DNA of 64,000 nt, taken from contig JAJLTO010000006.1 in the NCBI GenBank assembly GCA_030568195.1, positions 1,164,314-1,228,313 of the forward strand. The letters are read 5' to 3'. The DNA is from Dipodascopsis uninucleata var. uninucleata (taxonomy: Eukaryota > Ascomycota > Lipomycetes > Lipomycetales > Lipomycetaceae). Below are positions 5,418-55,310 of this stretch, in pieces (position 1 is the first letter of the stretch; the number at the start of each line of letters is the position of its first letter). The notes under the pieces were generated by a model. That model made no database searches, was not told where the DNA came from, and saw nothing but the letters and a program-made list of their open reading frames with translations. The position numbers and the translations under genes were made by a program.

Positions 5418-5714
5418 TTTGTATTTGTTGCTGCCGAGAGCTGCTAATTAGTAAAATATGTTACTAAGAAATAGACGACAACGTGTATCGATTTTGTAGA
5501 TGTTTGCCGTAAGTGAAGCAAATATATACACAAATCAAGTACAAGTTTCTAGTATATATAAGACGAAGAAAGAAAAAGAAAGACAGGCCACGAATGTATT
5601 CCGTGGAAGAGTTCTTTTTAAGTCTGTCCACAAAATACCTGGCTGATCATTTGTGATGGGTTCGTTTTATTAACGAGTGTAACTTTTTTCGCTGGGAATA
5701 CTCGAGCAAGAAAC

Positions 5715-5960
5715 AGCCACAGACCACAAAAGTTGGGCGTTGGGAATATTGAGCCACAGAGAAGTTTATTTCGTTTGCCACTACTATTCAGAGCCTAGCC
5801 ACAGGACTTTCTACATTCACCGTGATACTAATATATATGTATATTTGAGTTCTTAATTACATATTAAATTGAAGTATCCATAACATAATTTTTTGGTTAG
5901 TCTGTTACCTCAGGGGGGCATGGGTAAACATTTCTTTTACTCTTCCTCTTCCAGCCACAG
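5715..5960. promoter_or_regulatory. Four AGCCACAG repeats upstream of OLE1
   Basis: The octamer AGCCACAG occurs at 5715-5722, 5752-5759, 5797-5804 and 5953-5960, all on the + strand, 298-543 bp upstream of the OLE1 ATG. Four copies of one 8-mer in 250 bp is far beyond chance and suggests an operator. The binding factor is unknown. Confidence 0.5.
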
Positions 5961-6183
5961 TCCCGTATGCTTTGAATGAGCACATTCAATTACGTTGGAG
6001 CAACATATGCGACACAAATCGACATAAAGCAATCCTGTGCACTAGCTCATAATAGAAAGGATTCACTGACGAGCTTCAAGATATGGTGATATATGATCTA
6101 TATTGTCTCTTTCAAATGATTGTAGCTAAGCTTACTGATTTAGGTCCCTTCGATTTCGAAAAGTTCGTCATACATAACTTATT

Positions 6184-6207
6184 GGGGAGGGGAGGTGAGG
6201 GCAAGGG
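6184..6207 (+). other. G-quadruplex candidate
   Basis: Four G-runs (GGGG, GGGG, GGG, GGG) separated by loops of 1, 6 and 3 nt, so the segment fits the canonical G3+N1-7 pattern. It stands out in an otherwise AT-rich spacer, about 770 bp upstream of OLE1. Confidence 0.5.
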
Positions 6208-8418: not shown

Positions 8419-8463
8419 GTCCCAAAATGTCCCAATTAATTGGGAATAATTCACAATTGGGAC
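8419..8463. promoter_or_regulatory. Cluster of TCCCAATT palindromes
   Basis: 8430-8445 is the perfect 16-bp palindrome TCCCAATTAATTGGGA. It is flanked by GTCCCAA at 8419-8425 and AATTGGGAC at 8455-8463, so the same half-site appears four times in 45 bp. About 30-120 bp further on come GTAGCTTGAGCTAC and a TATATAAGGG TATA-like box. This looks like a dimeric regulator site in front of an unknown transcription start. Confidence 0.45.
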
Positions 8464-10786
8464 TTCTCTCTTTCTCCCAGTAGCTTGAGCTACAGAGTCA
8501 GAGTGCTCAGGCCCGCATACATCACAGCTCTGATGTCACTGAAAGACGTATATATAAGGGAATATATAATCCAAAGTAACCGTAGCCAGAAGTTGGGGAT
8601 ATAAACAGGCCATCCAAGAAGATTCCCCTGCTTGCAGATCGACTCTAAATGTTCTCCGGTGGTGCTGCAAGCACGAACTTGTTTATTTGCAGAGACGGTA
8701 ATGTTGTCAGTTAGGTTAGGCTGCAGCCAATCAATGAGGGTTACCTATAAATCGAGAGGAGGTAAATCCAACTGCTCTGCATCTGCACTGTGAAATTTAT
8801 ATACGTAAAGGGGTGAGATATAGTGTCACTACTTGTAGAATATTAAAACCATGACCATATAAAGCTGTTAAAGCAAAATGCACATCGCTGAGGCTGTTTT
8901 TAATACACTGTTTAGATAGAAAAAGTTCACTATCTGCTTTCATTCATCGTTCACTCCTCCTCCCAAAGGTTAAATAGTAATTATCACCACTATTCAGTAA
9001 TGCAAGGCACAAAAAGAGCGTAAAATCCACTTTTTTTTGGTCCCAATTTCACTTTTTTTCCTTTACTTTTTTCCCTTTTCATTTTATTCTAAAGAAAATA
9101 AATAGTATAGAAGACCATTATCAAGTCCTTATAGGAATCATATTCTCTACAATTGTTGTTTGGCTCTTAGTTGTCTGGGTAGCGTTTGGTAAGTCTTCTA
9201 TTTTCGTTTTTTCTTTCGGTGAGCAATAGGGGATACAAAATGCACGAGAGATGTGTAGGCTGTCAATGAGATTTTCGACCGTTCAGATTTCACTAGTTTA
9301 CAAGTGAAGAGCCATCTATTTCGCTTATTTCAGCTTTTAGTGGAAGACTAAGGAGAAAGCCTCAAGGATACTGAACATTTTGTGGAGCTGTGAACAAGCA
9401 TCTGTTACATGCTGCATATGGGAAATGCTACGTTGACGCCAGAAACTATGATTTATACATTTGTTATGGCCATTCTTATGCATCACCACTGATGCATACA
9501 TGTCAAAATTCATATGTACACTTGTTCGAGAGGTGTCGGATTGCTCTTGTGAACCTGACTGTTTTGTGGGATTGACTGCAGCAGAGGAAGGTTTTACTGA
9601 TTTCCTTTTAGTCTACATAGTTCAAGCCGAGGATATAGGTAAAAACAAAAACAAACTACTCCGGTCAAGAAGTCTAGTTTTAAGTATCGGTTGGTCGAAG
9701 AAACAGTCTTACCATCAAGCTATCATTCCCTGCAATTAGCGAAGTTATTTGATCGACTGCATTTGTTTTTGTAATATACTACTGGCACACACAACCAAAA
9801 AAATCTACTATACATTTGTATATATAGCTTTTTTTTCAGCATCGATACACTTATAGATATCTATACTTAACAACAAGCGTGGCTAGGCAGAAAATCTGTG
9901 ATAGATCATTAAATATTAGTGAACTTGTACATCTAGTTCATTTTCATTTATTTTAGGATAGTAGCCTCAGTTTCAATACTGATTGTGGTAGCATATTAAG
10001 CATTCTCTTCGGAGAGTCTCAAGCTGTCTGATTGCTATATTTATTTAAAAATCTGGTAATAACAAAGTACTTCTCGCTGCGTATTTAATTACGGATTTGT
10101 TTATGCGGTCTGACTGGAGTATTGATATTGATATTGAGGGATTATTTATATTGTGATTTGTTCGAATTTGTAGTTCTTATTCGGCCATTTTGGTGAGTAA
10201 TGATTTCATTGATTTATTTCTGTGTGCATTCTGCTGCGGGAGTTGGTGTGCACCTTGATGACACACATATAATGCAGTGGTCAAGAACAAGCATATGCTA
10301 TTACTCTGTAAAGAAGACATTCTGAAGCACTTATAGATTTTTAATGCTAGTTTTGATGCGATGATCTCATTTTATTGAGTAATTGACTATCAAGAATACT
10401 TCAGCCCAACTGGGTTGTACTCTAGTTCTACATATATAACTTTTGAGAGCATAGTTGTACGGTATTAACACTTTGTATTCGTTCTAGCTCAATGTCAACA
10501 GGTACCATTTAGTAGCCATAGTACTTGCTTTGCTATTTCAAATTTTTCGGTTCCTTTATTTTTTCACTTCGTTTTACGCTTATACCGTACAGTATTTGCG
10601 GTGAGCGCATTTTCTACTTGATATTTCTTCAACGAATTCAATTCCTGACTTACAAGCCTTTCTTTTTCTCCCTTTCTAAGTCTATTACCTCATTATTGAG
10701 TCTAACTCTAGACTGGATATATCTCTCTTCTCGATTTTTATTTCCTTTCTTTATTTTTTTTTGAGCAACTTCACTTTTCCTGCCGC

Positions 10787-15345: not shown

Positions 15346-18300
15346 GACCAACTAATACAGCGACTCGCCTTCCTCTGCCGAAGCGAACGACTGGAAATGA
15401 ATGACTTAAGAAACGAGAGACTAGACGCGCAAAAAGAAAAGAAAAGAACAGAAGATGACAGCGTCTGAAGACAGACCTCGTATGCCAACGAATCCAGAAA
15501 CGGGAGTGTAATAATCAAGTGGTAAGTGAAAAGACGTCAACAGACTATTTCTCGCGAAGGAAAAACTTCTGTGAAAGCAGGATATCTAATTTCTATTTAT
15601 CTTCTGCGAGTTAACGCTACATTTACTTAATGTTACCACATGGTTGTAAATGGCAGAAAGCTTCCGCTAGATCCAATACCGGTCAACAGAATTTCTGATT
15701 TTTCTGCAATGGATTCTCGTAGTCTTCTATCGCCATTTTCTGTGAACATCTGATAGAGTTCTCATAGCGTGGATTTAGTCTTCACTAGCGCAAAGTTTAA
15801 AGAGTTGAATTTTAGAGTTTGTGGACTTGCTAATATATAAACGCAATTCAAATGTCCACAGAACACTAGAACACTAAATCTTGCTGGGACTGATTAACAC
15901 TGACTTATGCTACGCCTTGTATTCGCGGCTAGCAGCCCCTCGAGTTCTCTTAAGCTGGCGCAGAAGAGCGCAGCACTAGAGTCTTGGGACAGCAGTAAAA
16001 GGAGTGCAGGTGTCCTTTGTTGCCCTGGCACTTGTGCAGCTGCTCCTGAGAAATCAGAACTGCAGGACTAGCAGGAACTTTAATCAGGATTGCGACAGAC
16101 TCCATTAAGCAACTGTAGAGAGAGGAAGCTAAGCAAGCAGGCAGCTGATATTACGTTTAGTGAAAGGAGAAATAAATGACCGAAGCCAAAAGAGCTCTAG
16201 TGAGAAAATAGGGAACAAAAATGTAGTTGTCAGCAGTTAGCCGAAATTATGCTAGGAGAGGCTGTTCGAAGAGCTGCAAAATAGCTGCGAATAAGACCTC
16301 GCAGAGAAATGAGCTTGACAGAGAGCAGTGACTGGGCTGCTGCGCGCTGTACACAGTCGCGACTGATAGCACGATGGGCGTCTCCGGCGACTGCAGCGTA
16401 CGGTCTTTCGATACGGAAAAGTAGTGTCTCCTTTGTTTTCGCCAGAAGTTCGCATGCTGGACACGCACGATTGAGTTCTACGCACAAGAGCGGCAGGGAC
16501 GCTGAAATAGGCACAAGGGAAGAAGAAGCAAAAAATGGCAACGTGTCAAGGCTGAAAAGGGATGTGCTGCAGCCTGGAATCGTTTATCGATGGGCTCTGT
16601 AGCTACACATCCGGCGAGGGAAACGGCCCCTACGCACAGTATATAGTTCTATTGGTAATAAAACGGTTGTCATAGTCTACAGAGCTGCGCTTCTGGTGAA
16701 ATTTATAGCGATGCGCCTCTTGGCACACCAATGCGAGTCGAGCGCCTGCTGGAAATAAAAACTACTGAGATCTGTAGGAGAGCAGTGCACACGTAGCGCC
16801 CACACTCGCCAAAGAAGGCTTAACTCCTGCTACGGAGTAGCCCACAGCACCCTACTAGCATAAAAGTAGTAAAAAACTGCTTAGCTCCTTTGACTTGTGC
16901 AGAAACAATAGCAGCAAAGATAAAGCGCGACCGGCCCTGAAGTCTAAACGTGCTATATACCAAACGATGAAGATAGAAAGTGAGCACTGCTAGCAGAGAG
17001 CCGTCCCGGACGCCCATCAGCAGTATTTCTTATGTGCGTGGATTCCGAGCACCAGGGCACGTTCTGAGCCAAGCTCGCGACCTGCCTGGATATGATTTCC
17101 ACAGCGCTTAGCGCCAGAAAGCTGGCATATAATAACCACCTTCGCCCTTTGGCTGGAAGAAAATTTAGCCTCGCTCTTTCTATCAAGCTGTAGGCCCCTT
17201 GGTGCGCAGCATGGCTAATTCAAAGGCCTGCGAGTATAAGCATAACAGACAATGCTAAAAAGCCTTGAAAAACTAACTATAATCATGACTACTACTGGCA
17301 GTTGCTAATGTTAAGGCCGAAATGCTATAGTTGCCCTGTGTTATTGCTCTGCACGCAAGCATTGCTACTCTGGAAAGCGGCTATTCGGTAGCTGTTTAGG
17401 GAAGTGGCCGAGGTCATCGCATTACCAGTAGTCGCTGCTAGTAAGCGTTACTGCCTGCTAGTGTTACCTTTAGAACGAGACTTGAACTTAATGGAATGTT
17501 CACTCGAGTTTCTTATGCCCCAGCAAGCTTCTACCCTAATCAGCGCTGCAGCTCTAGCCTCTTGTAACTTGCTCTTTAATTGAATAACAGACTTAGACTT
17601 TGAAGCTAAATAGACTAGTCACGTGTGCAATAATCCCCCTTGCGACAAGCATTAGCTGCCAGAGATTATTATCATTATAAATAGAACCGACCAGAACAAA
17701 AACGAGTGCAATATGTCCTTTAAGTGAGACTTCTTTTATTACTTGTCAAGATAGAGTTTACAACCATGCAAGTTCACGTGAATCTGAATCTAAATGAAGT
17801 TTGAGTGACTTGCTGTCTTAAACTTTTTTATTTTTTTTTAAAATTGATTTTGGAATATTTATGCGCATCCTGCAGCAATGCATTTTCTGCAATAATTAAA
17901 ACGTATTTTCGCCCGTATCTATCGACAGCCGCAAGACGACTCATCGCGTCCCTTGCTGTTTTAATACGCGGTAGAAGGCCGAATCTCTCGTAAAATTTAC
18001 TGAGTAAACATTCTACATGTGCTATGGATCGACACTACTATGTAATACGCTCGCTGACCACTACGGGACGTCCATTACAGGAGGTTGCGTACGAAAATGC
18101 CATTTTCGCTAGTTTTCTATTGCCGCTTGGCCGAATATTACCGGTCAGGTAGCTTAAAACGCAACATTGGCGCTTCCAGTGCTGCTGCTTTCTATATCTC
18201 AAATCTGGCGTCATCTTAGCGAATGTCTCTGTGAGACCATGATTCAAGCCTTCGGCTGTGATGTGTAAATCTGAGATTGCTACTGCTCGCGTTGCGCAGT

Positions 18301-19598
18301 CTACTGAAGAATTGTGACACAGCAAGAAGCTAGAGCCAACTACACGAGAAAATCAGAATCATCACGTTTATCCGGATAGAGAGCGACCACTCTAGTTTTA
18401 GCTCTGCTGCTGAGAGGCGGCAGTAATGCTCTTGCCAGTCTTCTACGTCGCGTCAGGCTTGTTAAGCATCTTACTCTAGTAGATTATCCAGTAGGTTTAC
18501 TCTGTGGTGATGCATTTCACCCTACCTATGATACCGCGGAGAACCTAAGCCATCTTGAGTTTGGTCGATTACTTCCATGCCACTTCTACGCGCACGAGAC
18601 GCTGAGAGCTTCTCTATAAACTTAATAGTCAGTCAGGATTGAAGCTATGTTCATGGTAAAAAAGTGACATGTCATATTTCATGTCTAATAATTGTTAGTC
18701 GCGCATTCCGATATTCTCGAGAATCGTTTTAGTCTGGCTTCGAGAAATATTTTTTAAACTTTATATGTTTATATTGTACTGATTATACGATTTGACAGCT
18801 GTCAGGGCACATGATTGAAAAGTTAGTATAGATCACTTCTATAGCGTCCGGACGATGTCTGGATCTTTCTGTCATTTTGGAATTGCTTTCGAAATGGGTA
18901 TTCTAGCTCAAATCTGTGCTACAACATTCCATATGTGAACTCTACCTGCGATGTAGTTCTCAGCTTGAAATATAGATGTCCCCTTGCTCTTGATCACCCT
19001 GAGCCTTTACTTATATGCCAATGGCTAAATACAATGAAGCTGAAGCTAGAAATAATTTAAGCGGACAGAGTGACTGTCGATACGACCAAAAAATTTGCAC
19101 TATTAATGATTCTAGGCTAGACTGGAAGATTTTAACGATACACGATGCAGTTCATCCGAAACTTACCTATTCGACGAGCTGATATATTTGGCTTTTGCAC
19201 TAAATAGATCACCACAATATAGTAGGATCCTGTTAACAGTTTATGTAGAGTTCGAATCATAGCTTCTCAGTCTTAGGATAGTAACAGAATCAATATTAGA
19301 CTACTATTTTCCTAATTGACTGCTTTCTTTGTGCTTGCTGTTTAATGTTCAGTCACCCGTTCTTTCCTGCTTACTGTTATCTGCCCACGATAAGTTCAAT
19401 GCGGTTAGGGCACTTATACTTTACACGAGGGATAGGTCTAATCATTATCTACCTAACCCTGTATTAGTTTGAATTCGATGTTAGGGTCTGATCATTCTCC
19501 CAGAAGTTGGGAAAATCGAAAAGGTTTTCTCTTTACGTAAACATGAAAAAAAATTTCTTTCTACCGAATTTTGAGAGGAGAGAGAAAAGTAGACAAAG
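15346..19598. other. 4.25-kb intergenic region with a GC-rich part
   Basis: Divergent spacer between the glycosyltransferase-like gene and HAS1. The part from about 15.9 to 17.7 kb is richer in G+C than its surroundings (roughly 53% over 16261-16560 by hand count) and unusually dense in GCTGC/GCAGC words. Several overlapping open frames of 70-105 codons occur at 16.2-16.6 kb in different frames on both strands, as expected of stop-poor GC-rich DNA rather than a gene. A short hairpin CGAAAATGCCATTTTCG lies at 18092-18108. No gene recognised. Confidence 0.5.
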
Positions 19599-24881: not shown

Positions 24882-26108
24882 TCACTGGCTTTTCGAATTC
24901 TTTGGTGGAAGCAAACGCTCATAGTCCTCCCAGTTCGAAAGTTGCAATGCATCAACCATATGGCGGCGAGCGCTGTTTCTAATATTCTCACTCCATCCCT
25001 CTGTGTTGCTCTTGCCTTCATCTTGAAATCCACCTTCAGGGGTAATGTTATCACTATCCTTGGACCCGTCAACTCGCCACGCAGAGAACACGTTAGGAGT
25101 AATAGTGTAGCCTCTGAGCTTTCCTTCTTGTATCTTCAATATGATGTCTATGTCGATAGGAGCAATAAGACTAATATAAGAGAAATTCAGGAGCATTCGC
25201 TGGGCACCTTGCCGTGTAATAGCGTACCCCATTGTACAAACAGGACCCCAAGAAGGAGAAATAATACGCTTCTTTCCAAAATCAGATGACTTGACACCTA
25301 AAACTTCCATCATGCTTGCATAAGAGTCTTTTGTCTGTTTTCGAGTAGGCGCATCTGGATCGTCGAACTCCTGAACCAAATCTATTCTTTTTTTGTTGGC
25401 ATAATCGGAGCATTGGCCAACATGCATTATATCCCAGTCTAATCCATAGGGTGCGTTCTGCTTCTCGTATTCAGTAGGCGGCTTAATACGCATCTTGTTG
25501 CGCTGCATCTGGGAACTAATTCGCGCAAAAATCTTATGGATGTTAATGTCGAAGTCGACATCATCTTCAAGAATGAGCATTGTGTCCATGTCACTCTCAA
25601 GAAGTCTAACCCAGGCGTTGACATGAGCTCTCCAGCATCCAAGCTCAGAATCACGCATACGCCCTCTGACTTTGTTTTCTGGAATAGCCTTCTCTGCGAT
25701 AGTGGAACCATTCACACCGTCGATTTTAGTAAACTTAAGGTCGTATAACGAGCTCATAAGAACCATAGCGTCCTGACGATCGGTGCGGTGAGGCATGCTA
25801 ATGTAGACGATTTCACCAAAACCTAGCGTCTTGTTAAGAGCGGTTTTTGCCAATCGCTCAGTATCTGCGGAGATTGACGAGTTAAGCCAGTTATGGAGAG
25901 ACTCTTGGTTCTGTAAGAACATCTGCTTATGTGCGTTACGCTCCATGACCAGCTTGGTAGTAACGATAATTAACACGATAGTTGTAATCATCGGCATGAC
26001 AACAATTGCCTGAGCTATCGAACGCTTGCGAGCCTTTAAATAAAGCACTATGTGGTCAATGACCTGCAGCATATTATGTCTCGCTGCGGAGACGTACTTC
26101 ATAATCAT
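24882..26108 (-). CDS. GT25-family-like glycosyltransferase, type II membrane protein
   Basis: 408 residues from the ATG at 26108. A cytoplasmic head of about 35 residues is followed by a membrane anchor (about 36-56, AIVVMPMITTIVLIIVTT) and a luminal catalytic part. The domain has the marks of glycosyltransferase family 25: EIVYISMPHRTDRQ at its start, ELGCWRAHVNAW in the middle and LILEDDVDF as the acidic nucleotide-sugar and metal motif. GT25 proteins act in LPS synthesis in bacteria and in collagen glycosylation in animals; related proteins occur in many filamentous fungi but are not typical of budding yeasts. A Golgi role in protein or wall glycosylation is inferred. No intron. Confidence 0.82.
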   Translation of the reverse strand: MIMKYVSAARHNMLQVIDHIVLYLKARKRSIAQAIVVMPMITTIVLIIVTTKLVMERNAHKQMFLQNQESLHNWLNSSISADTERLAKTALNKTLGFGEIVYISMPHRTDRQDAMVLMSSLYDLKFTKIDGVNGSTIAEKAIPENKVRGRMRDSELGCWRAHVNAWVRLLESDMDTMLILEDDVDFDINIHKIFARISSQMQRNKMRIKPPTEYEKQNAPYGLDWDIMHVGQCSDYANKKRIDLVQEFDDPDAPTRKQTKDSYASMMEVLGVKSSDFGKKRIISPSWGPVCTMGYAITRQGAQRMLLNFSYISLIAPIDIDIILKIQEGKLRGYTITPNVFSAWRVDGSKDSDNITPEGGFQDEGKSNTEGWSENIRNSARRHMVDALQLSNWEDYERLLPPKNSKSQ

Positions 26109-42077: not shown

Positions 42078-43670
42078 TCAACCCACGGTCTTCTCCTCAT
42101 CTACACTAAATCGATTATCTAAAGTATTTTGCAAACCAGGAGGAGGCATATCAGAACGATTCTGCCTATTTGTCTTGGTCGCGATTTTGCAGGCAGACTT
42201 TAGCTGCTTTCGTGGAGTACCAATGATAAGCTCATATACAAAGAGTATCACGAGAAGCATCATAGTAATACCAATGAGTCTGGTTGTGCTCATTTCTGCA
42301 AATGCCAAACATAAAACGATAATTCCGACTGGTATTCTGAGACCGACCCTTACAATTTGAGGAGCATAGTGTGTTTGAGGACTGTCAAGCGGCTTGTCTA
42401 AAAGAGCTAGAACAGTAAGGGCAATCATAACCACACAAATACCTCCGCAGAAGAAAAAAGCAACTGCATACATGCTGACTTCCTCTTCCTCTGAAGTCTC
42501 CCTTACAGTTAGCTCTTCGGTTCCACCACCCGTAGCCTCAGCATGATGTTTCGCTGTGGAAGTTTCTTTACTAGCAATTAGCTCACCAGCAGAGTCTGCC
42601 GTCAGAATCATAGAACCAATTAGTAAAAGATGGGCATAAAACCAGGTCGTAGCACTAAAAGCAGATCGTCGCAGGGCGTGGATTGCAGACTGACTTCCAT
42701 CTCCGTTAAAATAGAGCCACATAAATACATAGGATATCACGGCGACCATGATTGCTCGCCAAACGTAGACATGAATACCAGAACCAAGATCGCTATTCGA
42801 TACCACCTTAGCAAGAAACTCTCCAATAGCTATAATGTAAAAAGATCCATAACGATCAACTTCATGTTCGATATTGATAGCAGTAGAATACTCTAGAGAC
42901 AATACTTTCTTGATGTACGGGTGAAAAGACATTATAAATGACATCACATCCAAGAAATAAAGAGCAACTGACACGCCAATCTTCGCTCTTGTACGTACAA
43001 ATATAACGATAAGAAAAAGCAAACTAGTGATTGTCACCAATGTCCCATATAGACGCATTTGCAGTCTGTGTTGATGTACATATATCGAATAGACCCATAT
43101 CGATATAGCGAACGAAAGACGGCAGATAATGTAAGGAACAACAACCGCTGCAGCACTTTTCACATCGTCTAGAACATATTTAGAGCTATTTGTGAACACA
43201 ATCAATAAGCAGATAATCCATAAGATGTAGAGTCTCTGTGATAAATCATCATTAAAGTAGTAATTCATAAACTCCTTCACGTCTGCCCAGATAGTATAAG
43301 CGCCTTGAAAGAGGAGGACGTACTTCAAAAACGCAGCGGCGCTTGCATGGTCCGTTGCATCAGATGCCAGGATACTGACAATACCAACGTAAGTCAGATC
43401 AAAATAAAGCTCAATTTTACCTGATGAGCGTTCGCCACTCGTTCTATACAATACTCCATTATGGAAATAGTTCAGGGCATGTGGACGCATTAGCCATCGT
43501 GACTGCTTTGGTCTTTTGATATACACAACATTTATAGGACCATACTTCTGAACGAAGTCACTTTCTAATTCTTCTTCCTCATCATATGTTGGCTGCGGAT
43601 CCTCCACTTCAGCAACAGAATTCTGCTGTGTATTCGCGGTCTCTTGATTACTTATGCTAGCTTCAGTCAT
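42078..43670 (-). CDS. LtrA-family (low temperature requirement A) polytopic membrane protein
   Basis: 530 residues from the ATG at 43670. After a cytoplasmic head of about 90 residues comes the family signature: VELYFDLTYVG-like IELYFDLTYVGIVSILA, and later HEVDRYGSFYIIAIGEF. About ten hydrophobic segments follow, in pairs, with a Glu/Thr-rich loop at about 360-395. LtrA proteins were first named from Listeria; they are widespread in fungi but their biochemical role is not established. No intron. It lies between the polyol cluster and a long gene-free stretch, with no clear functional link to either. Confidence 0.85.
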   Translation of the reverse strand: MTEASISNQETANTQQNSVAEVEDPQPTYDEEEELESDFVQKYGPINVVYIKRPKQSRWLMRPHALNYFHNGVLYRTSGERSSGKIELYFDLTYVGIVSILASDATDHASAAAFLKYVLLFQGAYTIWADVKEFMNYYFNDDLSQRLYILWIICLLIVFTNSSKYVLDDVKSAAAVVVPYIICRLSFAISIWVYSIYVHQHRLQMRLYGTLVTITSLLFLIVIFVRTRAKIGVSVALYFLDVMSFIMSFHPYIKKVLSLEYSTAINIEHEVDRYGSFYIIAIGEFLAKVVSNSDLGSGIHVYVWRAIMVAVISYVFMWLYFNGDGSQSAIHALRRSAFSATTWFYAHLLLIGSMILTADSAGELIASKETSTAKHHAEATGGGTEELTVRETSEEEEVSMYAVAFFFCGGICVVMIALTVLALLDKPLDSPQTHYAPQIVRVGLRIPVGIIVLCLAFAEMSTTRLIGITMMLLVILFVYELIIGTPRKQLKSACKIATKTNRQNRSDMPPPGLQNTLDNRFSVDEEKTVG

Positions 43671-46600
43671 TCTGTTAAAAGCTCTTCATTTTCGTTAACT
43701 CCTTTCCAAAATTTGCTGTAGCATTCAAAATTCTTCAATCCTATACAACAGGGTTAGGTCAAATCAGCGTTTAGATGTCGCCGATCAACGTTAGATCTGC
43801 AAAAGGGCGAGAGCGGTTCTAAAAACTAGCTCGATAGCAATCATTTTGAAGACTAGAATTAAAACTTTTTAATAAAACTAAGCTAGAGGAAATGATGGTC
43901 TTCTGATTACATTATTGCTAACTTGGAGTCTTGTATCATGTTCCTAGTCAATCAATCGCAAGAGGTTCATTTACAATTTCAGCGGTATACAGTATCAATG
44001 AACGACTTTGCTCGGAAAAATCCTTCGCAGTACAATGGACCATGGCGTGCAGTAGTCATAAGATGCTGGAGATATAAGATTACGTCTGATCAACTGTATA
44101 GAGTAGTATTATCCATTCTACAGTTCTCTGCTTTAGACCATAACGCTTTCAAAGGTTGAGGACAACTAAGACAAAGTTCATATACAGAACCTCTGTAAAT
44201 TTTTCAAAAGTGATGATAGCTTGGATAACTTGATATTATTGAAGTATTTATATATTTATATGTTTTTAGCGTCTGAGGTTTGCAAAACTATTATCGTATG
44301 ACGACAGTAAAGCAGTTCCTAAGGAAACCGTTGAAAATATACCAATAAAGTTAAAGCAGTATAGTAAATATGCATAATTAATCAAAAACTTTAATATTTA
44401 AGGCTGGTTGAAATATGATAATCGTCCATATATTAAGTAAGGGCAAAAATCCAATGTCTTCACATTTGCAGCCACTGTCATGACATAAGCCATATTCATT
44501 AGGAATACGATATTTGTTAATACTATGCGTTAAAAAGGTTGTTCGTTGGTTTTGGAGACAAGGCTAATACGATGGCGAACATATGGATAAGCATCGGGAA
44601 AATAAGTTCTGCTAAAAACGTCATCTACGGATCATCTAAAAATCAAGATGCAGGCTCAATTCTAAAATGCAAATCAGCAATCCATCACTAGAGCTAAGCA
44701 ATCAGCTCGATAAAATATTTCAGCAACGTCCAATACGAGAATCGAGCAAATAAATGAGAGTAGCACCTCTACTGAGCTGCTATGACCGGAAGCAACAGCT
44801 TATAGTAGTTAGCATTGCCTTGAAAACACAAGCCATGCAACGCTCTTATTGCTTCTTTATTTTATTGCCTAAGTATTTAGATCGGCTCAAACTAATCAAC
44901 TATGCTCTCTTTACTTTACCTCCGCCAGTTTACCAATTTGATATTTGGCATCACAGCACCCTTTGATGCCAAATATCTGGGTGTGATTAAGTGATAGGTA
45001 ATAGGCGATATGCTGAGAACCTGGGAAGGTTATCTAAAGAAGCAGAAAACGGCTTTCTGGTCCATGCTATCTGTCTATTATTCAGTGCCGTCCAACACAC
45101 CAGTGTGCTGCCCAAGTTATAAGACCTTGTGAAAAAGTAGTGTGACAAAGGTATGATGCTCATGGTATAATAGGCTCAATAGTCAGCATTAATGAGTCAA
45201 GTTCAGTGTCAAGAGAGCGACATTGAGTTTCAGTTACAGTCGACAATATGCATTGTCACATACTTAGAACATATCTGAATGGCTACGCCCTATCAGAGCA
45301 ACAACAGCCCGCCCCCACCAAAGGATCTACTCTTCTATATATGTCACGAGAGTGTGAGACACAGAAGAGTGCTGAAATATTACCAAACAATACCATAGCA
45401 CTAGGTTCTACTGGGCTACCTGTGGGGTATCTAAAACCATTCTTTTACTATGGTACAGCCTGCAAATCGTGAAGTAGAGAATTAGCGTATCCTTGCAGAC
45501 AGGAGACGAGACGATAGGAAGAAGATGAAAGTAGGCTTAAAGTCGATGAGGCATAAGATGCTAGGACCCACTCCAGTTTATTAATAGATTGTAAATGTAA
45601 GAGCTGATGATCTTGCTGAGCCATTTTATTCTCATCAAAGGAACAGTCGTCCTTTACTTATTGAATATCGACGTAGCTGGACTTGGAAAAAAGACGAAAT
45701 GTGCCTACGGCTACATGATGTGTTGATGCGGGCAACATGAAGCTTTATACCTCCTATAAGAGCACTCGTGATATATAACTTAGAGCTTGCTTATCTGTAT
45801 TTATGGCGCTTGTTTCCGGATATAGCCTGCTTGCTTTACGTCTGTCAAAACGAGTACACATGTTTATAACAAAGAAAGGCATATTTCTGGGTATCACGCA
45901 TGCGTACCTAGCGTTTCAGTATAGAAGCTAGTATATGCTGTTATACTTAGAAAAATGGTATCAGTGCACCATATATAACCACAGAAGATACTTTCTCTCT
46001 ACAACTTAAAGTCTAGATTTAGAGTGCATAATCTTGCTTTAATAATCAGGTAACGCGTTCATTGAATTGCGGTCAAAACTTAAGTAAAGCTTTAGGCTAT
46101 ATTTTGGCTTGAATATATGCATTATGTTATTGATCGTTTACCGATAGTCTCTAAGGATTTGGAGGTATCCTGCTTTTCTTCCAACCACGTAAATGCTTAT
46201 TTAACCTATTCACTATCAGATATCTGCTGATAAATTTGGCTTGATCTAAATATTCCTAGTCATGGACTAAGTAATCTCGAGAAACATGCTATTCTGCTTC
46301 AAATACGACATAGAAAATTAAAGGCGGCGATGCGCGCCGCTTCCCGGTATTTGTGCAAAATTGTTCAGGTACAAAAAAGAGCGTCACCAGAAAACGCCAT
46401 GAACTGAATATATACTCGATTTCGCAGATATGCCAGAGAATACACAATAAGGAAACACGTTATTAAATATAGTAGTTTTCTGAGTGGATCTATGAGATTT
46501 ATCAGTTTCAGAGGCGCTTTTTAGTGCCTTAAATGATATATTCTGATAACATAAGCAAATCAGGAACCTAGAAAATCATAGTAACGCGTAGCAGTCCGCG

Positions 46601-48873
46601 CAGTAAACAGAGGAATTGGCAGAGGTCTCTATATAGACTGAAACAAGTTAAGTAGCTCAACATGGTGTAATTGACTGAGCTTTATTATTAAATTGCTCTT
46701 TGTCCGACTGTTTACTAGCTGTAGCGATAAATCTGGAAACCTATAATATGCTACACTGAATGAATTTGTAGGCTAAAGCTCAATAAAAAAGCGCAATCAC
46801 AGATATTGCAACTAGCAGCTCCATATTACGCGAGAACATGACCGCGAGCGCCTGTTCACGAAGAAAGGTGGCTATAGCATTATCAAATACTTTTTAGTGT
46901 ACAGCATATATATGAGCTTACAATTAACTATACTGTATTTGATGTAATCAAATAATACTCTTATTACAATGGCAGATATCTCCTTCGAGATCGAGGAAAA
47001 TACAGACCCAATAGTACCTCGGATTCTGATTTTCCATTATCCAGTGCTGCCATTTCTGAATTTATCTACGCAAACTTTGATACTAGTAAGATAGCATCAA
47101 ATTCTCAAATTTGTACCGATAAAAGAAATGTTGTTGATGGTTGCAAGTTCAGCCAGAGGAATAGTATGACGCTTGAGTGCCTTGTTGGATACATATTCTC
47201 TAGAGCATGCTGTCCACCTGTAAATGTCACTATTATCAGCAGTTCACAGTTTGAATAGTATCTGGAAAATAATTATCAAATGCCCAAAAAGCTACCAGCT
47301 CTTTTATTAATAAATAGATATCATTAGCTCCAATGCATAGATAACTAGAGCAAGTAGCGTTACTACAAGATCTCTAGGACTTGATTGGCAGAGGATAAAA
47401 ATACTGTTAGTATTAGGGCATTTGATACGACTGATACAAATATGTGTGTTCTCGGCAGTGTTAGCATGTCTAGCTCTCGCAGATATGTTTTATAAGAGAA
47501 GTGTGCACAATCTGAGAGCTTGAAGTAAACTTATGCAAAGCTGAAGACGTGAGAGGCGCACATGATGACGTACTAGAATCCGCTATTTGTTCTAGCTTAA
47601 ATCAGTATTATACCAATATATTAAATCTTTCTATACTCATGTTTCTTATCAGTTCGGTGATACAAGCGACTATTTCATCTATGAATTGGACTGTTCAGCA
47701 GTCTCAATGGTCTAATGAAAGGTCTGTCTCGTTATGGTAGACTTTGTCAAAATCATCAAAATATACACTATAAGAGATATCGTCAGAACAGGTCATAGTC
47801 TCAGCCATCAATAAATAAGGATCGTAGTATTCCTGTTCTTAAGCAAAGTAAATAGTTCTGGAGATAAGGAACAAATTGAATAATGCATTGTTCTTCAAAA
47901 GCATAATGCTAATAAACTTTGACGACGATTGATTTTTTAAGGCATGTAAACTTCTCATGAACAGGGGAATTGAAACCAGCACTGTTTATTCACAATGATC
48001 GTCAATTAGCATGTGGAAGTTTCGAATCATGGCTGGGAAATATCGCCCAACTAGCGATTTCTGCCTCTTTCTGTCGAGACCATCGTAAATGAGCGATCCA
48101 TATGATCTCGCATCTCGAACAGCATTCATTGCAGAGACGATATATCGAACTCTATTATAATTGATTATATATCTGACCTCGTAACTTCGCATTCTCGATC
48201 AGTTGGAAGAAGACAGATTATTATAGATAATCAGAGGTGGAAGAGACCATTATTAATGTCAAGAGAGATGATAGCATTATTGATATCTGATATTTCTATG
48301 TGTATGATTTAATTACCGCAGCAAATTTGCTGTTTTCAGACATATCCTTGCTGCAGACTCAAATAACTTTGCTGGTTGCTAGTTATTGATTTCATAATAG
48401 CTTGCTTGGGAACAATTAGGGAGATCATGCTGACGATTGGGAACACATTTTGATTCCTATGTTAGTGTACAGACTATCTATCTTTTTTTAGCACTCAAGT
48501 GGCTCATTATACGAATAGTCAGCAACTCTAACAGCAGATCAGTCGTTTACATTGCACAAGGGTGCTAATAAGCTCAACCTCAATGAGTGTGGGATGATGA
48601 CTCGCTCATAGCTGATCCTGCGCTGGCGAGGAGTGCCATTATACCAATGGTCCTACTGGTCTAAAATCCAAGACCTTGGCAGTACCGTGTGAAAAGGTCT
48701 ACTAATTACGCTATTAATACAAGTATTTAAATCTTAAATATTATTTTAAATATTTATTGGCCTCTCGATTGAAATAAACTACTAACATGGAAAGAATTTA
48801 AATTCAACTTCTAATAATATTTTCTGATTATTAGAATGCTACTAAACTAGTACACGAAACATATAATGTCTAA
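43671..48873. other. 5.2-kb intergenic region without recognisable gene
   Basis: Between the LtrA-type gene (promoter side) and the 3' end of the next permease. Frames up to 78 codons are present on both strands but without family features or consistent starts. Contains the 14-bp inverted repeat at 44940-44977, a small GC-rich hairpin (GCGGC/GCCGC) at 46324-46340 and an AGACCTT/AAGGTCT inverted repeat near 48674-48706. No tRNA boxes seen. Confidence 0.5.
44940..44977. repeat. Perfect 14-bp inverted repeat
   Basis: GATATTTGGCATCA at 44940-44953 and its exact reverse complement TGATGCCAAATATC at 44964-44977, with a 10-nt loop. A perfect arm of this length is unlikely by chance in a spacer. It may be a protein-binding site, a transcript hairpin or the remnant of a mobile-element end. 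Confidence 0.6.
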
Positions 48874-50614
48874 TTAATATTCTCTCTTCTCTGCAACAAC
48901 GTTCACAGAAATAACGTTATTCTTCTGAACACTTGATACAGACTCTGCAACTAGTTCATGATCGCCACTCTCCAATATATCGTCTCTGTCAACTGCCAAA
49001 CCGAATTCATTAAATGTCAGACCCTTGCTAGAGACTTCACGCTTGATCATATAATAAAAGATCCCAATACCAATCAATTCTAGACCAGCCATCGGTGAAA
49101 TGAGCTTATATCCGACAGGATAAAATGGTGCATCCTTCGAGGGATATACGACTACTGCCCACCAGAAACTGAAGATCATATTAATTGTATTACCCCAACC
49201 TATAAGTACTCCTCTGGCGAAGGGATCATCCTGGAATGCTTCTGAAGCCCAAGTCAGCATGAGAGGAAATCCTGCGAGACCGACGAAACCAATCATAAAA
49301 CCAAACATTTTAGTATGGAAGCCAACGTCCCACACAGCTAAAATTGTGCTACCCACGAACTTGCAACTCGTGGCAAAAATCCAACCTGGCCAGCGTATTC
49401 CGATGAAATCAGAAATACTACCGAGAACGTAGCCCGAGACGAGTGAAGTTGCATAACCACCTGTAGGAATGATATTTCGCTCTTGTACACTGTAACCAAT
49501 GTATTCCAGCCATAAATTGAAATAAGAGTAATACTGCGTAAGGAGATCTAAGTTATAAACTGTCAAAAATACATATGGACGCCAGCTCTTCCACATTTTA
49601 AGAAAGCGCCTCCAGGTCATCTTCTCACTTGGCTTTCTGCCAACTAATTTCATGCGAACGTTAGCGATTGCTAGCTCCTTTGGGCCAAGATACAAAGATC
49701 TGCATGTGTGAGGATAATCAGGAAGAGCAAAGTAGCCATATAATGCGACTGGAAGAGAAACTACTCCATCGATGATAAAGAGCCATCGCCAACCTGCTAG
49801 TCCTCCTAAGCCGTTCATAGAAGTATAAACTCCGGCTTGAATGTAACCAGAGAACATATTTGCAAGTGGCTGAGCCATATAGAACATAGAAAACCGTTTC
49901 CCCAATTCTTGAGGCATATACCATGACCCGATAATATGACTAAATGTGGGGAATATGGAGGCTTCCAAAATACCCATAATTAGACGAACGATGTATATTG
50001 TTTTCGCTGACTGACAAGCTGACGTAGCTATTGTTACACCACTCCATACTATTTCAATTGTTGGAATCGCGATTGATGGTCTGACATGACTGATCAGAAC
50101 TTGTGATGGAACAGATCCTAGAAAGTATCCGATAGAAAAAAAGGTAGAAAACAAGCTCAACTCGTTTCCATATAGAGATAGCTACATTTTAAGAGATGAT
50201 TAGCATCATTGGTGTAAATAATTAATAACCATTAAACAATGGCAATACTTACGTCTTGCTGCATGCCACTGACATACGCATTATTCAAGTTACTGGAATC
50301 GAGAGTCTTGATCAAGTATGATAAAATAATATAGACGCTATTTTGGAGGAAACCATTGTTAGTAAATCCCCAAGAGATCGTCTGCAACAGCGTTCAGAGC
50401 AACACAAGCAATTTCCTACTCACAAAAGGAACAAATCAAGCTTCATAACAAAGCTTCTCTCTTCTCCTATTTTGCCGAATGTATCCCAGACTGTAGCAGA
50501 GATCCTAACAAATCGAGAAGCTCGTGACAACCGAAGCTCCTGCTCAGCGGGAGTTTCAAGATTCACGAGTGCTTCATCGTATGGCTCTTTTTCAGATAAT
50601 TTTTTCCAAAACAT
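48874..50614 (-). CDS. MFS permease of the Dal5 (allantoate) family, three exons
   Basis: 527-residue plasma-membrane symporter. Exons on the minus strand are 50614-50424, 50337-50253 and 50181-48874. Intron 1 (86 nt) has donor GTGAGT, an exact TACTAAC branch (50358-50364) and acceptor TAG; intron 2 (71 nt) has GTAAGT and TAG. Splicing joins EERSFVMKLDLFLF, LSYLIKTLDSSNLNNAYVSG and MQQDLSLYGNELSLFSTFF, the standard helix-1/helix-2 region of Dal5-type permeases. Without the first two exons the protein would lack helix 1. Twelve hydrophobic segments in total. It is distinct from the Fen2-like permease at 28-29.7 kb. The substrate (allantoate, ureidosuccinate, nicotinate or other) is unknown. 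Confidence 0.9.
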
Positions 50615-51852
50615 ATCTCTATGACTAACTAGATTATTAATGCTTTACCAGAAACGTTAATAGTATAGTAATCAAAAGTAGACGTAGGCATAAACTGCTT
50701 AAGTAGCGGTTTACTAATGACTTTTGTCAGCTTCGCGAATGTAGAAGTGAAACCAACAAATTACAGTAGTTATATATGAAGTCAGGCATCTTGACGAGCA
50801 ATATTTATTATTATGTATTATCGTCATTTGCACAGCTTGAGATATCAAATAGGAGCAACATACGAGCTATGTTAATAGAACACCAACAAGTGCCTGAAAT
50901 AAAGAGGACTTAGTATTAGCGCTAAGCTTAAGTCATTGATAACTGACTACCATTAGAGTTATGGAGTGGCCAAAGCTCAAGTTTAAACTATTATCAGCCG
51001 AATCTATAGCACTATAAAACCCGAACTATCATTCTTTGCTTTCTGCTATCTCGACGGTGCATTTTGAAACATATCTCTTCAATCTGCCAGTCTAGACGTG
51101 TCTGGGTGCTGCTAAATGCCGTTAGTTTCGTAGGCGTTTTATTGTGTTATCAGTGACGGCTATGACTATTGCTAGATTAACGTTGACCAACCTCTAAGGC
51201 TTAAGTAAGCTCTGCCGGGGAAACTAACAAATTCATTGTGAAACGGCATAAAACTAGTCAGAAGTTGGAGTAAGTTTTAGTTCTATAAACGCATGAGATG
51301 TACAAAAATATTGTTCGCATCTTCTAAGCTATCATGGTCGCGAGGTGCAATTGAAACTTAAACGACAGGGTTCCAATTATGGACGATGTCACCTTGAAAC
51401 AATACAATCGTACAGCCTTTAATTACTTAAAAAATTCTAGCTGCCACCATTAATGCATTGTATTTGACTTGTGGTAAGTCATAGGATTGTATTTCAATAA
51501 AGCTATGCCTGAACATGAACAGTGAGATTTTAGCGACGCAGTTTAGATGGTATCGCTCCCTACAGATTCATATGATCGCAAAAACGATTCGAAATACTAA
51601 GCAACTATGAAGATAAAGCTTAAACTACATAGGCTCATTGTAATATTATTGAGTATTGCGTAATCAAAGTTAGTTTTGAGCGTCCTAAAGGACATTGAAT
51701 AAACATATATAGATAAGACTAGAACATATTGCTTAATTGCGGTACTAATCCTTTAATGCCATCATTATCTTGGCATTATCTTGATATATAAAAACGATTA
51801 TAAAAATTGAATGTTGACATTTAGTAATTATGGAAATTCGAGAACTGCCAGG
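50615..51852. other. Permease promoter and reductase 3' flank
   Basis: 1.2 kb. A near-tandem 10-bp direct repeat CATTATCTTG lies at about 51761-51781. No gene recognised. Confidence 0.55.
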
Positions 51853-53675
51853 TTATATAAAAAAATTTTGTGTATGGACATGATATTCGGCCGTCAAACC
51901 GCTGTGCTTCAAGTTCAAGTGTATAACGTCATTTTTTATCTGTGAACATAACAGAGATGATCCACATACATATAACGCTGTTCTAGTATTAACCTCCTGT
52001 GGTATCCCCATAGAATTGCCGACCCAATGTTGGAAAGATGCTGGCTTGCCTGTATAAAAATTTATAGAACTCCAAATACTTTCCTTTTCTGATCCATCGG
52101 ATAAAGTGGTACCATCAGCACAGTATACATCAATTTGTACTCTGTCTCTTAACTGTCGCTTTTCATGTCCTTCCGAATGTATTTTAGAAATTATGTCGCA
52201 TATATCGTTTTCATATGCCAGAAGATGCTTTGCTGATTTCAGTATTATTAACATTCTATGATTTCTTTGGCTTTGTCCAGAGTATTTCAGTGACTCTCTG
52301 ATCGTTGAAAATCCATATCCAGTTCCGACTCCAGATGTAATGGTTACTATCGTATTATATGAAGAATAACATTGCGACGGTCCATACGGGCCGCAAATTA
52401 TTATTGGTAATGTACACGACCTGCTCAGGATAGACTGCGCGGAGCTATTCATCTCAAGATTACCATTGTCATAAGAGTGACCTTGGTTATCGCCCTTAAT
52501 TACCTTTGTGTAGAGTTTCTTGGTAAATCCTGTTTTTACTCTTATAATAAATCTCAGCATATTATCTTCCGAGAGGCTTGCTGGTGTGAATGGGTGGAAT
52601 GATAGAAATTCGACTGACGGACATGAGATTGTATAGTACTGACCAGCATACCAGTTTGATAAAGAAGAAAATCCTTTCATTGGAATTTCCATAACGATAA
52701 TTTCATTACTTTCACTCGCTGTTATATTTGCCCGATACTTAAACCCATTCCGTGAAACATTAAAAAAAAGTAGCTCTAAAAAGCGGACTAGAACATCTGC
52801 TGCCCATATTCCCACTGCAATATATAAATATATGTGCGCGTAGTTAGGCATGTGCTTGTATGCCGCAGCAAAAAATACTATGGCACATATGACATGAAAA
52901 TGATAGAAAATCTCAAAAAAGTATTTTCTGAACCCTCTGATTGAGAATATAAGTACAGTCGGTGCAAGGACGCACCATGCACCGAATCCACGTCGAGTGA
53001 TGATGTCATTTTTTAGCTGATATGTAAGGAAATTGAATGACGTGTAGTATCGCAGCATGAAGTACATGTGCATCGTTGCAGTCATTAAAATTGCTCTAGC
53101 GACCCATCTGTGCATATAGTTGATGTTATAGCTGCTCGAATTACCGGAGACTATGGCGACAACATTTAGCCGTTTAGCGGAAAGAATGGAGAGCAGAGGA
53201 AGCTGTGTAATTGTGAGCCACGCCAGACGGTAACCTGCTTTTTCAAGCAGTCTAGAAGATCCCCATTTCAATCTATATAATGCAAATGCTACCATAAGAC
53301 ACATATATCCTATAGCCAAAAGTGCTCTACCAAGTGGCAACGGACTAAAAATGCCGGAAGCGCCATGAACCAATTTCGAACTTGGAGATGGACATGATAC
53401 AGCATGACGTAGAATGTTTGTTGCGCTGGATACAGATACTAGTGCACCAGCAAATTTTCCTCTATGATGATATAAGTATACAAAACACACATTTTGACTA
53501 TTTAGCAACTTGTCTCTTACCTTTTAAGCACTTCAATTAATTTTGAAACGAGACGATAGAGTAATATTATGGCCAAGACTGCCCCTATGACAGCCCAATA
53601 CATTCTCGCAAGGTAGCCCGGGCGAGGAACCCCATCTGCGTCAAATTGACCTTGACCATTATTTGAAAAAGCCAT
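51853..53675 (-). CDS. Ferric/cupric reductase transmembrane component (FRE family), two exons
   Basis: Plasma-membrane metalloreductase passing electrons from NADPH through FAD and two hemes to extracellular Fe(III) or Cu(II). Exons on the minus strand are 53675-53521 and 53461-51853, giving 587 residues. The 59-nt intron runs from GTAAGA to ATAG; unspliced, the frame stops at once (TAA inside the donor). Exon 1 supplies MAFSNNGQGQFDADGVPRPG and the first membrane helix. Both heme-binding pairs are intact with H-X13-H spacing (MHRWVARA...MHM and FHVICA...YKHM). The FAD motif HPFTPAS, the NADPH loop CGPYGPS and the C-terminal YVCGSS are present. It is divergent from the Bim1-like copper protein across a promoter rich in GAGCAAA sites, which favours cupric reduction. 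Confidence 0.92.
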
Positions 53676-54659
53676 TTTATTTCCTTCAGCTAGTTCAGTT
53701 CCACATATGTAGCTGAAACTAGAAGAAAATGCTGGTAGCTGAGGGAAGATATTGAGTTAATAGACAGAGCAGGTCAAACCTGAATGGTGAGTTATCTTCA
53801 CCTGTGCTAGAATATAATTCTAATTGGGACTCTTGACAACTAAACTAGCTACCCTCGTAGATTATATCTAATATTTTCCTATGTAGAAGGGTAAAAGTGA
53901 GCAGTTAGAGTTCTCTTTTCGATATTGTGCTCTGTGAGTGAGTATGAGCAAATTAAATTATTCAACTGCAAGGACCTGATGATGACTTGTAAACCACATA
54001 TCCTGCGAACTAATTCGAAGAATTAAAGCAATTGGATTATGAGTCTTTTAAGAATAATACATAGGATGGACAAAAAGCTGCCGTTGACTCCATTGTGGTT
54101 TTTCCTCTACGGTAGCCACTTTGAGACTCATTTATTTGTCATATTCAGCAGCATATTTGATACGAGCAAATTCGAGCAAATTATTTCTTGGTATAAGTCA
54201 TGGTTCAGATTCAAGGTTATATTCTCATGGTAGTGAGTCTTAGTGTATTCCTGTTTTATATAAAATTTGTCAGAATTGGGAAAATCGCCAAGCATTAAAG
54301 TTATAATTGCGGTTAGTATTGTTTAAGCTTAACGACCTGACATATAACCCATTCCTCTCCCGAATATGATAATTGACCTACTCTATTGGCCGTCTGCGAA
54401 ATTTATCGAGGGAATACGAACTGAGTATCTTCCATCGACAGATGCCAAGAAAATCGCGTTTAATGTAAGGGTAGTATAAGCACATTTGAGCAAATTATAA
54501 TTAAAACGAGAGCTAAAAGCTAAGTTGTTGGTACTGGCATGCTTGGCATTCACATTCATATAATGGGCACTTCACGCTGGACCTCTAGATGCCCCCCAAG
54601 AGATTAATTTCATTTGAGAATAAGATATAGAATTAATTAGCATCAACTGAATATACATA
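53676..54659. promoter_or_regulatory. Shared divergent promoter of reductase and Bim1-like gene with four TTTGCTC sites
   Basis: 984 bp. GAGCAAA (reverse of TTTGCTC) occurs at 53946-53952, 54164-54170, 54174-54180 and 54488-54494; the first and last are preceded by T, giving TGAGCAAA, the full TTTGCTCA copper-response element bound by Mac1 in budding yeasts. The middle pair is spaced exactly 10 bp, one helical turn. Chance expectation for the 7-mer on both strands is about 0.1 in this length. Confidence 0.65.
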
Positions 54660-55310
54660 ATGCAGACTAACAAATTGCTTTTGCTATTGTTGATCGGTGC
54701 TTCAAGTGTCCTTGGTCACTTCAACTTGAACTACCCGACTTCTCGTGGTTCTAACCACGACACTCAGACTGAAGCACCATGCGGTGGCATCAACACTGTA
54801 TCGAAGAATCTTACTCTGTTCAATCCTGATGGATCTCCAATTGCTACTACTTCTTCACATTCTGAGAGCGGTGTTGCAGTCTATTTTTGCCCAAAAGAGT
54901 CTGGTTGTGATAGCAATGCTGACTTCAACGTCACATTGGTTCCTATTTTCCTCGAAACAGGAGCAGGCGCATTCTGCCTGCCGTCTGTTCAATTCCCTAA
55001 TTCTATCTATCCAGCTCACGGTAATTCAACTCTTGTCGGAACCATCCAGGTCAGATACGAGAGTGACGACGGAGAGCTGTACAATTGTGCTGATGTCGAG
55101 GTTTCAAGAGCCGGCATACAATCATCAAGCATGTGCACAAATGCCACCGGTATAAGCACTTCTACCTGGACCGGATCTCTAGATGATGATGACAGCAACA
55201 ATAATTCATCTAGCTCATCATCAGATAGTTCTAGCGCTGCTTCTAGCTCTGCTGTTGTCAGCATGGCTTTTGTTGCTGCGATGGTGGGTGCTGTCAGTCT
55301 CCTTATTTAA
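54660..55310 (+). CDS. Bim1-like (X325) GPI-anchored copper-binding protein
   Basis: Secreted cell-surface protein of 216 residues in the Bim1/X325 family, LPMO-like proteins that bind copper and help its import instead of cutting polysaccharide. A signal peptide (1-19, ending SSVLG) should be cut to leave His as the new N terminus (HFNLNYPTSRG), the first half of the histidine brace. PCGG follows at about 41-44, and six further Cys could form disulfides. The C-terminal Ser/Asp-rich stretch and final hydrophobic segment (VVSMAFVAAMVGAVSLLI) indicate a GPI anchor. No intron. In Cryptococcus, Bim1 is induced by copper starvation and works with Ctr1; here the divergent neighbour is a metalloreductase, which fits the same task. 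Confidence 0.9.
   Translation: MQTNKLLLLLLIGASSVLGHFNLNYPTSRGSNHDTQTEAPCGGINTVSKNLTLFNPDGSPIATTSSHSESGVAVYFCPKESGCDSNADFNVTLVPIFLETGAGAFCLPSVQFPNSIYPAHGNSTLVGTIQVRYESDDGELYNCADVEVSRAGIQSSSMCTNATGISTSTWTGSLDDDDSNNNSSSSSSDSSSAASSSAVVSMAFVAAMVGAVSLLI

Follow-up and report, generated by a model that had tools for sequence, protein, structure and literature searches.

Head-to-head FRE reductase and X325/BIM1-like genes across a gap with clustered Mac1-like sites: a putative two-way copper-starvation promoter

Divergent copper genes in other fungi

In Fusarium oxysporum, Mac1 (chromatin immunoprecipitation sequencing, ChIP-seq, motif DHNTGCTCANNN) is bound at the divergent gene pairs fre9/ctr3, fre12/ctr1b, and fre10/FOXG_02393, the last member of which is called "uncharacterized" (PMC11563359). 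The locus described here lies in a 64-kb window, that is, the whole analysed stretch of 64,000 nucleotides from contig JAJLTO010000006.1 of Dipodascopsis uninucleata var. uninucleata, and consists of a FRE-type reductase gene and an X325/BIM1-like gene with the gap between them. As in F. oxysporum, a metalloreductase gene diverges from a second gene, here a putative copper-limitation gene, and the promoter carries several TTTGCTCA-type Mac1 sites. The partner differs: two of the F. oxysporum pairs have a Ctr transporter, and the partner in the third, FOXG_02393, is uncharacterised. F. oxysporum is, moreover, a filamentous fungus with proof from ChIP-seq and RNA-seq, whereas the present locus is known from sequence alone.

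In Aspergillus nidulans, the common promoter region of freC and ctrA is said to bind AnMac1, and the transporter occurs with a neighbouring metalloreductase in 110 of the 127 species studied (PMC7705104). AnctrA-AnfreC is like the unit proposed here in that a reductase and a copper-uptake gene share one promoter region, but the AnfreC partner is a Ctr transporter and the present FRE partner is an X325 protein. By analogy, the pair resembles a yeast version of the known divergent copper-uptake layout in which X325 takes the place normally occupied by CTR.

A likeness in gene content comes from Pseudogymnoascus destructans, in which VC83_03095 (BLP2, BIM1-like) and VC83_03096 (FRE7-like) both increase under copper withholding (PMC12113139, PMC13208438). 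BLP2 transcripts rose 3.8-fold, and significant upregulation is stated for VC83_03096 too (PMC12113139), and the log2 fold changes of the proteins were 3.57 and 3.59, respectively (PMC13208438). The locus tags are consecutive and adjacency is read from them; the words "adjacent" and "neighbor" are absent from the main texts of both papers, and "divergent" is absent from that of PMC13208438. A second responsive BIM1-like gene, VC83_07867, has a tag beside no listed reductase, and a third is unresponsive (PMC12113139, PMC13208438). Pairing with FRE is therefore no rule for the BIM1-like family. The Aspergillus fumigatus homologues of the pair, XP_747797.1 and XP_747795.1 (PMC13208438), have accessions two apart, which hints at neighbouring genes. 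By analogy, the BIM1-like/FRE arrangement is perhaps widespread in ascomycetes. Consensus words for Mac1, Cuf1, and the copper-signalling element (CuSE) were sought in the P. destructans CTR promoters and none was found (PMC11509074); a copper response is therefore possible without a Mac1-type element.

When copper is limiting, Cryptococcus induces Bim1/Cbi1, a protein that acts with Ctr1 (PMC7924993, PMC9258870). The C. neoformans protein is of one family with the X325 protein here, and its glycosylphosphatidylinositol (GPI) anchor, histidine brace with Asp, and copper-starvation role correspond to what is predicted for the latter. It differs in belonging to a basidiomycete with Cuf1 control, and no reductase-gene pairing appears in the parts of PMC9258870 and PMC7529816 that were consulted. 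The Podospora GRISEA paper (PMC3495915), in the part available, held no site or pairing information. The initial annotation did not know the pair as a described yeast divergon. Divergent fre pairs with Mac1 sites are known from Fusarium, and a common freC/ctrA promoter from Aspergillus, so the novelty narrows to the pairing of FRE with X325, on which no remark was found in open-licence main texts among the matches listed.

Identity and layout of the gene pair

The FRE-type reductase gene (minus strand) and the X325/BIM1-like gene (plus strand) stand head to head, with 984 base pairs (bp) between their start codons (Table 1). From its sequence and by analogy with the systems above, the locus probably works through a Mac1-type promoter that fires in both directions under copper starvation and induces, together, a surface protein for the capture of Cu(II) and a reductase. 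This reading builds on the identities of both genes, their layout, the clustering of sites between them, and the haem-ligand and copper-ligand residues of their products, all of which are observed. Overall, the observation in the initial annotation was confirmed, and its interpretation was partly supported.

The FRE end of the gap is the spliced start at 53675 and not that of the ATG-to-stop open reading frame (ORF) 51853-53304, which covers just part of exon 2. The short intron is predicted because splicing gives one open frame that reaches the start. With this spliced start the originally given distance of 984 bp is right, and the end at 51853 fits. The spliced protein matched PF01794 (Ferric_reduct; E 4.5e-14, 53 bits against a gathering cut-off of 28) and PF08022 (FAD_binding_8; E 1.9e-13, 50.9 bits against 22). 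HX13H haem pairs stand at residues 169/183 and at residues 241/255, and the motifs HPFT, GPYG, and CG are present as well. Two such haem-ligand pairs are the defining feature of FRE metalloreductases. A PDB search with the product of ORF 51853-53304 gave five distinct sequences (best E 1.3e-5), each named as either the heavy chain of cytochrome b-245 or a putative ferric reductase. On this sequence evidence, 51853-53675 encodes a FRE-type metalloreductase, and the reduction of Cu(II) itself is predicted.

The product of the second gene matched PF20238 (BIM1-like) at E 1.1e-31 and 110.6 bits (cut-off 27), with residues 19-164 spanning profile positions 2-140 of 140. All three families that underlie the proposed identities thus scored above their cut-offs. 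Against LaX325 of Laetisaria arvalis (PDB 6ibh/6ibi/6ibj), the likeness is moderate only (6ibh; E 5.6e-10, 42 bits, residues 20-163), and the ligand positions align: His20, His67, and Asp145 stand opposite residues 1, 49, and 130 of the LaX325 chain. Cleavage after Gly19 would make His20 the N-terminal histidine of the brace, and we infer from the alignment that Asp145 is the copper-ligand Asp of the X325 family. In this family, a histidine brace is combined with an Asp ligand (PMC7529816, PMC10952591). Judged by these sequence matches, 54660-55310 encodes an X325/BIM1-like protein, and copper binding is predicted from the family. Of the 10 PDB sequences that matched the protein at E up to 1, the WD-repeat designs and antibody chains were set aside, which leaves 6ibh as the only credible match. 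In virus and prokaryote contig collections, 1 and 56 pattern matches to X325 relatives were found, of which tblastn confirmed none, as expected. An alignment-free AlphaFold2 model of the X325 domain was unusable (mean predicted local distance difference test score, pLDDT, 37.9).

Mac1-like sites in the gap

The four GAGCAAA (TTTGCTC) sites claimed for the gap were located on the plus strand at 53946, 54164, 54174, and 54488; two of them are extended as TGAGCAAA, at 53945 and 54487. A longer plus-strand word, GAGCAAATT, is common to all four and occurs nowhere else in the 64 kb. Read towards FRE, the sites are four copies of AATTTGCTC in one orientation, and the window total is also four. With the next base they become two TTTGCTCA and two TTTGCTCG. 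Each of them agrees with the published Mac1 consensus TTTGC(T/G)C(A/G) (PMC11509074), and TTTGCTCA is itself given as a Mac1 element (PMC11563359), so the proposed match to this element holds. The looser Fusarium ChIP-seq consensus DHNTGCTCA has 28 matches in the window and three in the gap; two of these are sites 1 and 4, and the third is a possible weak fifth site.

The initial annotation also pointed to two sites spaced by exactly one helical turn. Two sites are indeed 10 bp apart, but this spacing is not independent evidence and was ruled out as a sign of cooperative binding, since the 20 bp that hold both sites are an exact tandem duplication.

Table 1. Coordinates of the features of the FRE-X325 locus (positions in the 64-kb window)
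Feature	Position	Strand	Remark
FRE-type reductase gene	51853-53675	-	two exons, 587 amino acids after splicing
FRE exon 2	53461-51853	-	haem transmembrane core, flavin adenine dinucleotide (FAD) domain, NADPH-type motifs; Pfam and motifs
FRE intron	53520-53462	-	59 bp, GTAAGA...CATAG (GT...AG); predicted from single open frame
FRE exon 1	53675-53521	-	start codon and first hydrophobic segment; spliced translation
Shared intergenic promoter region (putative)	53676-54659	.	984 bp, 36% G+C
Possible weak fifth site, AACTGCTCA	53898-53906	-	fits DHNTGCTCA only
Mac1-like site 1, AATTTGCTCA	53945-53954	-	271 bp to FRE ATG, 714 bp to X325 ATG
Mac1-like site 2, AATTTGCTCG	54163-54172	-	10-bp tandem duplication, copy one; 489 bp to FRE ATG, 496 bp to X325 ATG
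Mac1-like site 3, AATTTGCTCG	54173-54182	-	10-bp tandem duplication, copy two; 499 bp to FRE ATG, 486 bp to X325 ATG
TATA-like stretch	54254-54265	.	TATAWAW, both strands; 4 overlapping matches in gap, 2.0 expected
Mac1-like site 4, AATTTGCTCA	54487-54496	-	813 bp to FRE ATG, 172 bp to X325 ATG
X325/BIM1-like gene for a putative GPI-type surface protein	54660-55310	+	216 amino acids, intronless; PF20238
Predicted signal peptide	54660-54716	+	hydrophobic run; hydropathy
His67 codon (mature His48)	54858-54860	+	second histidine of brace; opposite LaX325 His49
Asp145 codon (mature Asp126, CADV motif)	55092-55094	+	candidate Asp ligand; opposite LaX325 Asp130
Ser-rich stretch and hydrophobic C-terminal tail	55230-55307	+	GPI-attachment-like; hydropathy; residues 191-216

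Clustering of the site words

The signal is the clustering of the words in the gap and not their number in the window. Four of the 12 window copies of TTTGCTC, and four of the 10 matches to TTTGCKCR, fall inside the 984-bp gap. For comparison, 22 non-coding gaps of at least 200 bp were used, bounded by hand-listed ORFs and by FRE and ADH as genes of two exons; these gaps depend on the hand list, and some may contain undetected exons. TTTGCTC occurs four times in the FRE-X325 gap, twice in a 5.2-kb gap, and once in each of two gaps, and 18 of the 22 gaps have no copy. Within the window, the word is accordingly not equally frequent in the other non-coding gaps, which bears on one of the points on which the initial annotation had let its reading depend.

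With a background of four copies in 34,577 bp of non-coding DNA, the Poisson probability of at least four TTTGCTC is 6.4e-6. If the tandem duplication is counted once, the probability of at least three TTTGCTC is 2.3e-4; the corresponding value for the 9-mer, a word picked after looking, is 1.1e-6. Dinucleotide shuffling of the gap gave at least four TTTGCTC in 1 of 20,000 cases (mean 0.17) and at least four TTTGCKCR in 0 of 20,000. In 3,000 shuffled gaps, any 8-mer of all four letters reached at least four copies six times, and any such 9-mer never did.

A motif-free survey, in which k-mers with at least four copies inside 984 bp were collected anywhere in the window and passed through a low-complexity filter, showed how much the word length matters. 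Clustered 8-mers numbered 10 of 24,751, with five left after filtering, two of which belong to the site word and three of which are unrelated. Clustered 9-mers numbered 3 of 45,917, and the only one left after filtering was AATTTGCTC.

Some other word clusters were seen. Two TTTGCTCG sites (44007-44014 and 44743-44750) lie in an ORF-poor stretch upstream of 42078-43670 (minus strand), which encodes a membrane protein of the LtrA family (PF06772); they are probably there by chance, as two in 5.2 kb is about background. At 8419-9049, in a long non-coding stretch, GTCCCAA and AATTGGGA are clustered with four copies each inside 984 bp. Four copies of AGCCACAG occur in about 250 bp at 5715-5960, upstream of a fatty-acid desaturase/Cyt-b5 gene (3903-5417, minus strand).

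Proposed mechanism

Under low copper, a Mac1-type copper-fist activator would act on the four AATTTGCTC(A/G) sites and drive both genes outward. The X325 protein would be secreted, processed to an N-terminal His20, and GPI-anchored, and the mature form would hold Cu(II) via His1, His48, and Asp126, as expected from its family. The FRE protein would carry electrons of cytosolic NADPH to the outer face by way of FAD and two haems, and there Cu(II) would be reduced to Cu(I). The copper that FRE reduces would most likely come from X325, by release or hand-over, and Cu(I) would then be taken up by a Ctr transporter encoded elsewhere.

The order of capture and reduction can be narrowed with data from a relative. 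Bim1 binds Cu(II), was reported not to be redox active when purified, and gives up copper with H2O2 (PMC7529816). Because Bim1 binds Cu(II) and is reportedly not redox active when purified, an order is preferred in which X325 takes Cu(II) and FRE reduces it at hand-over. The reverse sequence suggested earlier, reduction followed by capture at the surface, is the less likely one.

A wider view, which we hold only tentatively and regard as somewhat doubtful, is that the FRE-X325 head-to-head arrangement is an ancient ascomycete unit, found from filamentous fungi to yeast, with the reductase dedicated to X325. X325 would gather Cu(II) at the wall, and its partner FRE would reduce it at hand-over to Ctr. 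If so, fre10/FOXG_02393, VC83_03096/VC83_03095, and XP_747795.1/XP_747797.1 would be one locus. The function of Bim1/Cbi1 in Ctr1-mediated uptake is called unclear (PMC9258870), and a conserved genetic tie between X325 and a reductase would give a candidate electron donor and a pair amenable to deletion and assay. A BIM1 homologue is marked as not detected in Saccharomyces cerevisiae and Candida albicans (table in PMC13208438); in the present yeast, in contrast, an X325 gene would lie next to an element of the Mac1 type.

Alternative explanations

Several points weigh against a copper-starvation promoter that serves both genes. The site words are not enriched over the whole window, with 12 TTTGCTC found and 13.15 expected, and three TTTGCTCA found and 4.27 expected. 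The stretch 54163-54182 is an exact duplication of the 10-bp unit CGAGCAAATT, so that two of the four sites go back to one event. In the motif-free survey, 98 of 8,000 7-mers were clustered and 37 remained after filtering; a 7-mer cluster by itself is therefore commonplace, and the 7-mer probability is fair only because the element was named beforehand from prior knowledge. Other control words are present in the gap as well: two CuSE/Ace1-type words (1.5 expected by length), three HGATAR (4.1), and four CCAAT (2.3). No NADPH-domain family was found in the spliced FRE protein by Pfam at E <= 0.001, and a Pfam run on 15 of the window's gene products turned up no Ctr gene. That FRE passes electrons directly to X325-bound copper is also unsupported, since purified Bim1 is reported not to be redox active.

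That AATTTGCTC is bound by a factor of another type than Mac1, or is a repeat born of chance or duplication in A+T-rich DNA, draws on the duplicated sites, on the filtered 7-mers and the three unrelated 8-mers that also form four-copy clusters, and on whole-window shuffles, of which 4 of 100 reached at least four GAGCAAATT (4 found, 1.22 expected). We consider this improbable, as AATTTGCTC is the sole filtered clustered 9-mer of the window, shuffled gaps almost never match the counts and contain no four-copy 9-mer, and the word includes a published copper element and sits between two copper-linked gene families. Slightly more room is left for the view that the sites serve one gene only, with a passive head-to-head placement and separate control of the other gene, although it too is unlikely. 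The sites are spread across the gap, and distances alone are silent on which gene they serve; however, a full TTTGCTCA is proximal to each gene, and in P. destructans the consecutively tagged FRE and BIM1-like genes show a joint increase (PMC12113139, PMC13208438).

The least probable of the three alternatives is that X325 has a cell-wall or developmental role apart from copper import and that the reductase serves iron. FRE enzymes often reduce iron. X325 relatives have been tied to synnema formation, conidiation, and hyphal fusion (PMC9695133), and in Cryptococcus, Cbi1 has an effect on the cell wall as well (PMC9258870). Yet the gap holds copper-type sites, and the copper-ligand positions of X325 are present. 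YRCACCCR, CACCC, and ATCWGATAA, which are iron-control words, have zero matches in the 984-bp gap, as do the published Cryptococcus Cuf1 word AAKGGCKC and A. fumigatus MacA word TGTGCTCA. With these words unmatched and HGATAR below expectation, iron or Cuf1-type control of the gap was rejected. The proposed co-regulation of FRE and X325 is supported by their sequence context and by precedent.

The surrounding window

The window resembles budding yeast DNA with CTG read as leucine. Four CTG codons fall in the alignment of its Has1 helicase, three opposite Leu and one opposite Met, and CTG is apparently leucine. The top PDB match of this helicase, a chain of 505 residues, bears the name HAS1; we take it to be the S. 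cerevisiae protein, and 391 of 494 aligned columns are identical. About 35.9 of the 64 kb lie outside the hand-listed ORFs, which seems high for a budding yeast. Three stretches of 4-5 kb (5418-10786, 15346-19598, and 43671-48873) are without an ATG-started ORF of 100 amino acids. Searches of the 64-kb window for tRNA genes (ARAGORN, bacterial setting) and Rfam families (gathering score) gave zero matches, and a transaldolase-like ORF had zero matches in the PDB at E 1e-50.

At 48874-50644 (minus strand) lies a gene for a major facilitator superfamily (MFS) permease. Its open frame runs upstream of the first listed ATG (to 50181). More open pieces occur at 50232-50393 and at 50420-50644, and the gene seems to be split by introns. 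A protein of glycosyltransferase family 25 (PF01755, E 2.7e-15) is encoded at 24882-26108 (minus strand); its family is named for bacterial lipopolysaccharide synthesis, and the protein has an N-terminal membrane-like segment as judged by eye.

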